64,000 nucleotides of DNA from Candidatus Saccharimonadota bacterium (GTDB lineage: Bacteria > Patescibacteriota > Saccharimonadia > Saccharimonadales > Saccharimonadaceae), in contig JAFWIP010000010.1 in NCBI GenBank assembly GCA_017514805.1, forward strand, positions 1 to 64,000, given 5' to 3'. Position numbers and translations under genes: made by a program. Each line of letters opens with the position of its first letter. Positions within the stretch are counted from its first letter, which is position 1. The notes beneath the pieces are model-generated. The model saw only the letters and a program-made list of their open reading frames with translations, made no database searches and was not told where the DNA came from. This document shows, in pieces, positions 20,250 through 21,894 of the stretch.

Positions 20250-20278
20250 TTGACATAAGCGCTAATCTATGATATACT
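20250..20278 (+). promoter_or_regulatory. Promoter of the 20384 gene
   Basis: TTGACA (20250-20255), 17 bases, TATACT (20273-20278), with extended TG at 20270. Expected start near 20285. Confidence 0.85.
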
Positions 20279-20284
20279 TATATA

Positions 20285-20383
20285 AGTTTCAAATGATTAG
20301 CGTTTTTGATGTTCTTTTATAAAAACGCATAGTATTCTAGCCAATCTCAAGAAAGGGGGAACCGAGGCTAGCGGGTATGAAGA
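20285..20383 (+). promoter_or_regulatory. Two-hairpin leader, copy 1
   Basis: Hairpin 1: GCGTTTTT (20300-20307) with AAAAACGC (20321-20328), loop containing TGTTCTTTTAT. Hairpin 2: CTAGCC (20337-20342) with GGCTAG (20366-20371), its loop carrying GAAAGGGGG, a Shine-Dalgarno-like stretch. The same two hairpins, loop words and spacing occur before the unrelated gene at 21227. Candidate cis-regulatory RNA. Confidence 0.65.
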
Positions 20384-21052
20384 ATGAAGATTAATCTTCA
20401 GGCAAATGCGGACTATCTGACGTCCGAATATAGTTTCCATCATTTTGCCGAGTTTGCGGAGAATTCGAGTCCGAATGATACGTTATATTTTGGCGATGAG
20501 GAATGTTATGAGAAGGGTCTCAAGCTGATTCGTTTTAACGATGATGGTGGTTTTGACGAGGCCTACGCTCGTAAGAAGAAGAACTACAAGAAGTGGAAGG
20601 ACTATGATAGTATTGTATGGGTAATTAGAACGAGGGGTGGCTTCGTTTTTCTGACCGATAAGAATGAATTTTATCGTACGATGAAAGTGCCTTTCGGCCC
20701 TGTTCATGTGGAGCCGATGGAACTTGCAACTGGCGCAAAGCTATTGTCGGAAGTTAAGCCGGATGAGTTAGTGAATAGTAGATATCAAGGTGCAAAATGG
20801 TGGATTCACTGCGAAGGTAGAGACATACCGAGAAGCACTCTGAGTCTGTTCGAGCGCGTCATGCTTTGTCCGACTGGAAATATGAAACTCCAGTATTTAA
20901 ACTTAAAACTAGAGATTAAGGTTGAGGACAAGAATGGCGGAATTAAGAGTATCCCAGATGCCGTCATGCTTACTATGTTAAACGACGAAGTGATCGTAAC
21001 ATCTTTAAAAGAAGGACCAATCCTCCTCAAAAAAGATAATTGTGATCATTAA
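20384..21052 (+). CDS. Orphan cytoplasmic protein, unknown
   Basis: 222 residues, no signal peptide or membrane helix, mixed alpha/beta character, rich in Lys/Asp. No family recognised. ATG at 20384 is used because the ATG at 20377 opens only five codons. The best ribosome-binding stretch (AAAGGGGG) lies 24-31 bases upstream inside a hairpin loop, with GAGG at 20364, so translation may depend on leader folding. Strong promoter and private terminator make it a single-gene unit. Confidence 0.75.
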   Translation: MKINLQANADYLTSEYSFHHFAEFAENSSPNDTLYFGDEECYEKGLKLIRFNDDGGFDEAYARKKKNYKKWKDYDSIVWVIRTRGGFVFLTDKNEFYRTMKVPFGPVHVEPMELATGAKLLSEVKPDELVNSRYQGAKWWIHCEGRDIPRSTLSLFERVMLCPTGNMKLQYLNLKLEIKVEDKNGGIKSIPDAVMLTMLNDEVIVTSLKEGPILLKKDNCDH

Positions 21053-21060
21053 TACAATTA

Positions 21061-21086
21061 GCCTGCGCGTTCCGCGCGGGCTTTTT
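21061..21086 (+). terminator. Terminator of the 20384 gene
   Basis: Stem GCCTGCGC / GCGCGGGC with GTTCC loop and TTTTT. Confidence 0.9.
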
Positions 21087-21103
21087 GCTGCAAAAAAGAA
21101 TGA

Positions 21104-21132
21104 TTGACGTGCGATATAAAACATGGCATAAT
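21104..21132 (+). promoter_or_regulatory. Promoter of the 21227 gene
   Basis: TTGACG (21104-21109), 17 bases, CATAAT (21127-21132) with extended TG at 21124. Confidence 0.8.
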
Positions 21133-21138
21133 ATAAAA

Positions 21139-21226
21139 GATTCGATGATTTGCGTTTAATTGTTCTTTTATAAACGCTACGATTCTAGCCAGTATACGAG
21201 AAAGGTGGGGCTGTGGCTAGCAGCAA
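21139..21226 (+). promoter_or_regulatory. Two-hairpin leader, copy 2
   Basis: Hairpin 1: GCGTTTA (21142-21148) with TAAACGC (21171-21177), loop containing TTGTTCTTTTA. Hairpin 2: CTAGCCA (21185-21191) with TGGCTAG (21214-21220), loop with GAGAAAGGTGGGG. Matches the leader at 20285-20383 in order, loop sequence and position, with compensating stem changes. Confidence 0.65.
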
Positions 21227-21856
21227 ATGGATATGAAGGGATTCATATATTGCAACAGTAAGGTATATCCGGATGATGAGTATTGCGCCCTGATGACGGT
21301 CTATAGCGACCTGCTGACTGCGATTAAAACAATGACAGTTGGCGACTGTATTGGGGTTGATGAGCTCTATTTTCGAGACGGGGCGATTCTCGCGCTATTT
21401 CTTAATGAATGCTGCGCAGAAGGAGAAATCACTTTTATTATGCGCGTGAATAAAGGTTTTCTTATTCAGTATAATTATTCGACCTATGTATTTACAAAAA
21501 GCTACAATCTATTTATGAACTCGAATTTCGCATCCGTCTCAAATGCTGAGGCGAAATCATGGATTCGCGAAAAGGCTTCTCCTACGCGCAAGTATCGGAA
21601 CCAATATTGGAATATTGTATCTACTCTTCTCGGAAAGGTTCATAAAGAAACAAATGAACAAATTAATCAATTTATAGAGCGCAAAACAGAAAATATTGTC
21701 CTCGATTTAGATAGGCATCCATTCTATAGGTTGTCCATCGAAGAGGAAATAGAATTTATCCCACTCGAAATCGTTTGGCGAAACGACGATATAGTTATTT
21801 ATTGCGATTCTATGCCTCCGATAGTTTTGGGTGAACGAGACGAAGAAATTGAGTAG
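21227..21856 (+). CDS. Orphan cytoplasmic protein, unknown
   Basis: 209 residues, soluble, Cys-containing N-terminal half (NSKVYPDDEYCALMT, GDCIG, NECCAEGE) and a basic centre. No family recognised and no clear similarity to the 20384 protein despite the shared leader. ATG 21227 is followed by an in-frame ATG two codons later, which could also serve. Own promoter, leader and terminator. Confidence 0.75.
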   Translation: MDMKGFIYCNSKVYPDDEYCALMTVYSDLLTAIKTMTVGDCIGVDELYFRDGAILALFLNECCAEGEITFIMRVNKGFLIQYNYSTYVFTKSYNLFMNSNFASVSNAEAKSWIREKASPTRKYRNQYWNIVSTLLGKVHKETNEQINQFIERKTENIVLDLDRHPFYRLSIEEEIEFIPLEIVWRNDDIVIYCDSMPPIVLGERDEEIE

Positions 21857-21869
21857 CGAAGCACGAAAC

Positions 21870-21894
21870 AGCCCGCGCTTTACGCGGGCTTTTT
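21870..21894 (+). terminator. Terminator of the 21227 gene
   Basis: Perfect stem AGCCCGCG / CGCGGGCT, loop CTTTA, followed by TTTT. Confidence 0.9.

Follow-up and report, generated by a model that had tools for sequence, protein, structure and literature searches.

The window, which is the whole stretch of 64,000 nt analyzed here, carries the gene order trmD - gene A - gene B - recG. Genes A and B each have a separate predicted promoter and terminator (Table 1). In genome G028, which belongs to the same genus, this region reads trmD - A - recG; the leader of gene A is kept and gene B is absent. This ortholog of gene A (79% identity) was the only one found among 61 genomes, and the -10 region of the gene A promoter is conserved in it. 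No homolog of gene B was found in 61 genomes. Searches for homologs of A and B in genomes, phages and viral contigs gave nothing convincing except the G028 ortholog, and comparisons of the two proteins with the Pfam, PADLOC and PHROGs families gave nothing convincing either. AlphaFold models of both proteins were unusable (pLDDT ~37).

An earlier note on this DNA had described the two genes as unrelated. Neither BLASTP nor hhalign revealed similarity between the two proteins, as that description would suggest. However, their global alignment scored above shuffled sequences (z = 2.6-3.3 for A and 1.7-2.6 for its G028 ortholog), so the claim is unsafe, and a very distant paralogy of A and B is possible. 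Within 21227-21235, gene B has two ATGs in the same frame. From the alignment, ATG 21233 is a likelier start than ATG 21227 because it aligns with the ATG of gene A, at the conserved distance from the pseudoknot described below.

Table 1. Features of the gene A and gene B loci (positions in the window).
Feature	Position	Strand	Details
Promoter of gene A	20250..20278	+	Sigma-70-type, predicted from sequence; TTGACA 20250-20255, 17 nt, TATACT 20273-20278
Accessory hairpin H1, leader A	20300..20328	+	GCGUUUUU/AAAAACGC, loop with UGUUCUUUUA
S1a of pseudoknot A	20337..20342	+	CUAGCC; S1 covariation in alignment A9
SD stretch, leader A	20350..20359	+	AGAAAGGGGG, in loop 1; unpaired in conserved structure; 24 nt before ATG
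S2 hairpin of A	20362..20374	+	CCG 20362-20364, L2 A, S1b GGCUAG 20366-20371 as loop, CGG 20372-20374
Gene A	20384..21052	+	222 aa, orphan
Intrinsic terminator of gene A	21061..21086	+	Predicted from sequence
Promoter of gene B	21104..21132	+	Predicted from sequence; TTGACG 21104-21109, 17 nt, CATAAT 21127-21132
Accessory hairpin H1, leader B	21152..21177	+	GCGUUUA/UAAACGC
S1a of pseudoknot B	21185..21190	+	CUAGCC; 7th pair possible with A21191
SD stretch, leader B	21199..21208	+	AGAAAGGUGG, in loop 1; from sequence and S1-blind scan
S2 hairpin of B	21210..21224	+	GCUG 21210-21213, U, S1b GGCUAG 21215-21220 as loop, CAGC 21221-21224
Gene B	21227..21856	+	209 aa from ATG 21227
Intrinsic terminator of gene B	21871..21894	+	Predicted from sequence

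Two similar leaders are present, at about 20285-20383 (A) and 21140-21232 (B), each with its own promoter. As the earlier note described, both contain GCGUUU.../...AAACGC with a TGTTCTTTTA loop, and TTCTAGCC...GGCTAG enclosing GAAAGG(G/T)GG. The compensating changes reported for stem 1 were also found: at one position, U-A in leader A corresponds to A-U in leader B, and the stem of A is longer by one U-A pair. The exact pattern CTAGCC-N-AGGNGG-N-GGCTAG occurred at two sites in the source genome, which are leaders A and B; the reversed pattern, used as a control, occurred at none. Two other parts of the description had to be changed. Two independent hairpins are not supported, as the second belongs to a pseudoknot, of which it forms one helix, and the first lies outside the conserved core. 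The Shine-Dalgarno stretch (SD) is also not base-paired in the conserved helices. The GGCUAG strand, which is the 3′ arm of the second hairpin in the note, doubles as the loop of another hairpin (S2) between the SD and the start codon. The SD therefore remains unpaired, in the loop between S1a and S2a, and it is unpaired in the conserved structure of all instances.

The order of the element is S1a - loop 1 (with the SD at its end) - S2a - 0-3 nt - S1b - no linker - S2b - 7-9 nt - AUG. S2 starts 0-3 nt after the SD and ends 7-9 nt before the start codon, and the position of the element is fixed relative to the SD and ATG, not to the promoter. In pseudoknot leaders the SD-ATG spacing is 23-29 nt, and about 8-11 nt once S2 is folded. 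Three leaders of the source genome have a spacing of 24-29 nt, and leader B has 24 nt to the aligned ATG. By comparison, ordinary strong SD sites of the source genome mainly lie 3-10 nt from the ATG (55/66 sites). Only eight sites in this genome have a spacing of at least 18 nt, and half of them (4/8) are the pseudoknot leaders. The anti-SD of 16S rRNA was not found in the source-genome stretches by a simple pattern.

In total, we found 11 instances in six genomes of one genus of tiny gut Saccharibacteria, four of them in the source genome. An architecture script scan of the whole source genome revealed two leaders besides A and B. One (L031; S1 CCGCCAU/GUGGCGG, S2 GUGCG/CGCAC) precedes a gene for a secreted or membrane protein of 137 aa, and the other (L027; S1 CCGG/CCGG, S2 UCUCG/CGAGA) a gene for a membrane protein of 97 aa. 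A covariance-model search of Saccharibacteria genomes, which the earlier note had proposed, also recovered additional leaders. Model R3 had been built without L031 and recovered it at 18.1 bits, in rank 4 behind its own three members. It likewise recovered L085 of G012, which was not used in building it (S1 CCGGUC/GACCGG, S2 UGCUUG/CAAGCA). A three-leader model picked up weaker matches upstream of genes for small membrane proteins in other genomes of the genus, and the alignment of these matches was what revealed S2. The weak matches of two other models, R1 and R2, were mostly noise on inspection and were discarded. A partial scan of G028 found a leader (L171) syntenic with L031. Their flanks are 78-84% identical and S1 has compensatory changes, from CCGCCAU/GUGGCGG to CCGUCUA/UAGACGG.

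S2 was present in all 11 instances and covaried. Its sequence varies by locus with the pairing kept (CCG/CGG, GCUG/CAGC, UGACCG/CGGUCA, UGGUCG/CGGCCA, UUGGUCG/CGACCAA and CUCG/CGAG), and its stability ranges from -1 to -8 kcal/mol. The S2 helices of A and B are weak, that of A having 3 bp and -1.0 kcal/mol; S1 and S2 of leader A are unchanged in the leader of the G028 ortholog. S1 also differs in sequence between loci, and G-U pairs are present among the helices. Outside the SD there are no invariant unpaired nucleotides. In alignment A9, which comprised the 11 instances, 92.6% of the cells were paired and 9 of the 11 base pairs had changed on both sides (0/500 shuffles), although these pair counts lean towards the structure because A9 was anchored by hand on the SD, the ATG and the helices. 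The covariation score was 0.661, compared with 0.230 in shuffled alignments (0/500) and at most 0.136 when the alignment was slid; the slid versions were at most 45% paired.

A scan blind to S1 is free of this anchoring bias for S1. Requiring an SD, a hairpin, an ATG and an open frame, it gave 11 sites in ~1.7 Mb, 10 of which had a hairpin loop complementary to the strand upstream of the SD, with the caveat that the stretches had been selected with some of these sites already known. In the source genome it returned exactly four sites, all with S1. A Markov control gave one site in six genome-sized sequences, and this one had no S1. RNAfold energies of leaders A and B were no better than those of shuffled sequences (z = 0.06 and 1.09). 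Thus, single-sequence folding gives no support for the structure, whereas the comparative evidence does. On that comparative evidence, we regard both helices and the fixed positions of the SD and AUG as demonstrated.

The element seemed to have a narrow range, because none was seen in partial scans of 0.4 Mb of G034 (same genus) and 0.4 Mb of G191 (another genus); the architecture-type scans covered ~2.5 Mb. In a family-wide search of 394 genomes with R3, the matches outside the genus had neither S1 nor S2. Among 393 genomes of the order, all real matches to the exact CTAGCC pattern were in this genus, and no viral contig matched it. In a collection of 84,980 species with one genome each, the pattern had 14 matches. 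Four were from Saccharibacteria, one of them a sheep omasum genome, and all four had S2 and an ATG. We regarded the 10 matches in other phyla as chance: nine lacked an S2 followed by a start codon, and the tenth had only a 3-bp stem with GTG. Rfam 15 contained no relevant family for the window at the gathering threshold or for nine loci at a relaxed one, and our literature search found no paper treating both Saccharibacteria and a pseudoknot. The element appears to be a translation-control family that has not been described before.

Two candidates with different hairpins near the SD were rejected because they are not this pseudoknot. In G034 (L086, C1:312362), a short hydrophobic reading frame is preceded by an AGAAAGGGGG SD whose upstream edge lies within a CTCGC/GCGAG hairpin. 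In G004 (L099, C11, ~1500), the SD is followed by a 6-bp GGCTAG/CTAGCC hairpin ending right at an ATG, a possible split ribosome-binding site of a different kind.

The GCGUUU hairpin (H1) is present only in leaders A and B and in that of the G028 ortholog. Its loop motif, TGTTCTTTWAT, has five sites in the source genome, three of them within pseudoknot leaders. The leader of L031 also has the motif, and the leader orthologous to L031 does not. H1 is at most an accessory feature. In A, B and G028, the H1 loop (UCUUUU) could form a kissing interaction with the SD (GAAAGG); we did not adopt it, since any pyrimidine run would fit. A sequence resembling the loop motif, TGATGTTCTTTAATATACACGC, was also seen without a pseudoknot in the leader of a PhoH-like gene (L017, G020 C37:2082).

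The genes behind the leaders are fast-evolving and mostly encode small membrane or secreted proteins. Hydropathy predicts membrane segments or signal-like N termini for all the downstream proteins except A and B and the ortholog of A. None of those scanned had a Pfam match above the cut-off, and the genes share no common known pathway. In G022, G064 and G068, the leader lies behind the same ABC-F gene region. These leaders are 85-88% identical over ~58 nt, and those of G022 and G064 are 77% identical over 88 nt. The genes directly behind these leaders have little or no DNA similarity among the three genomes. Thus, the leader is conserved where the coding sequence is not, as the earlier note had proposed for A and B, and its suggestion of a structured control element at the ribosome-binding site is supported. 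A variable island of small fast-evolving membrane-protein genes was observed beside the ABC-F gene in all three genomes (L015/L073 in G022 C10, L024/L075 in G064 C11 and L016/L074 in G068 C19).

In genes 38 and 25 of phage T4, a hairpin between the SD and AUG shortens the spacing from 22 to 5 nt and from 27 to 11 nt, respectively (PMC3014915). Our leaders are similar in that a long spacing (23-29 nt) is cut by a hairpin to about 8-11 nt; both the over-long spacing and the distance-restoring hairpin of such split ribosome-binding sites are present in them. Unlike in T4, the S2 loop and a strand upstream of the SD are complementary (S1), which makes a pseudoknot, and the element recurs before several unrelated chromosomal genes. 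A leader pseudoknot for translational control is also known from T4 gene 32. However, the gene 32 knot is 67 nt away from the start codon, on its upstream side, and serves to nucleate the cooperative binding of gp32, whereas the SD is inside the knot here (PMC3014915). The rpsO (S15) operators of Escherichia coli and mycobacteria likewise have a 5′ UTR pseudoknot at the ribosome-binding site, which governs 30S loading and alternates between two-hairpin and pseudoknot states (PMC8470358). Two interleaved covarying helices were found here as well. The E. coli rpsO knot includes coding sequence, whereas the present one ends 7-9 nt before the AUG. Our leaders precede genes that differ among themselves, none of them rpsO, and the encoded proteins match no known RNA-binding family. 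Because of these genes, simple S15-type autoregulation by the encoded protein is excluded.

We propose, with a probability of about 0.72, that the leaders are cis-acting elements controlling translation initiation, in which a split ribosome-binding site of the T4 gene 25/38 type is combined with a loop-closing pseudoknot. Folding of S2 would remove the stretch between SD and AUG, so that the SD reaches the start codon over ~8-11 nt and initiation is permitted. S1 would pair the S2 loop with the strand upstream of the SD and tie the SD into a closed loop, and its opening and closing may tune the access of the 30S subunit to the SD. If S1 alone were formed, the SD would be 23-29 nt from the AUG and initiation should be poor. 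This difference in spacing makes it plausible that the S1 and S2 states form a switch, by analogy with the rpsO pseudoknots. Classical H-type stacking is impossible because there is no linker between S1b and S2b. From the geometry, we would instead expect S1 to be stacked at the 3′ side of the S2 loop, where 1-2 nt would span the deep groove. Such 3′-side loop stacking with a short deep-groove bridge is typical of kissing-loop complexes. The S1 balance of several genes may be set by a common trans-acting factor, ligand or condition. A wider proposal is that the leaders form a genus-restricted family of pseudoknot switches in Saccharibacteria, with a regulon of rapidly evolving proteins (surface, membrane and orphan) whose split ribosome-binding sites are toggled through S1 by one shared factor. 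We advance it tentatively, at odds somewhat below even.

It is also conceivable, though unlikely, that the pseudoknot is a constitutive spacer, which merely shortens the SD-AUG distance or protects the 5′ end of the mRNA without regulation. The T4 gene 25/38 hairpins are plain enhancers (PMC3014915), and in G022 and G064 S1a follows the -10 box at a distance of 23-28 nt, which places the knot at the very 5′ end. However, a spacer would need no more than S2, yet S1 was present in 10 of the 11 blind matches and is kept by compensatory changes, which suggests that the closed loop matters. Small pseudoknots near the SD are a common design of riboswitches, and the knot could be an aptamer whose small-molecule ligand locks the SD loop. 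We consider this improbable, given that neither Rfam threshold gave a match, both helices vary, the invariant unpaired nucleotides are confined to the SD and the genes have no common known pathway.

An RNA thermometer would agree with an SD inside a foldable element and with the weak S2 helices of A and B. It is nevertheless very improbable: the conserved structure leaves the SD unpaired, mismatches are rare in both helices, and S2 stabilities spread so widely would give no common melting point. A functionless remnant of a local tandem duplication of gene A and its leader, which the earlier note had itself raised, would explain the tandem arrangement, the similar leaders and promoters, and the weak signal between the proteins. 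This accounts for the A/B pair only; further instances with other helix sequences and covariation were found at other loci, and we regard such an origin as extremely unlikely. CTAGCC...GGCTAG is formally an inverted repeat that a regulator might bind in DNA. This reading is almost certainly wrong, as the S1 sequence differs between loci, an interleaved second helix covaries, G-U pairs occur and the placement is tied to the SD and ATG, not to the promoter.

As a cis-acting control of translation initiation, the element would join two known devices, a split ribosome-binding site and a pseudoknot operator, in one 50-nt module. In Patescibacteria, translation control has been suggested as key to the change between attached and free cells (PMC11665869). 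Almost nothing is known about gene regulation in Saccharibacteria and other Patescibacteria, and the leaders described here provide a small, well-defined RNA that unrelated genes have in common and that has strong comparative support.
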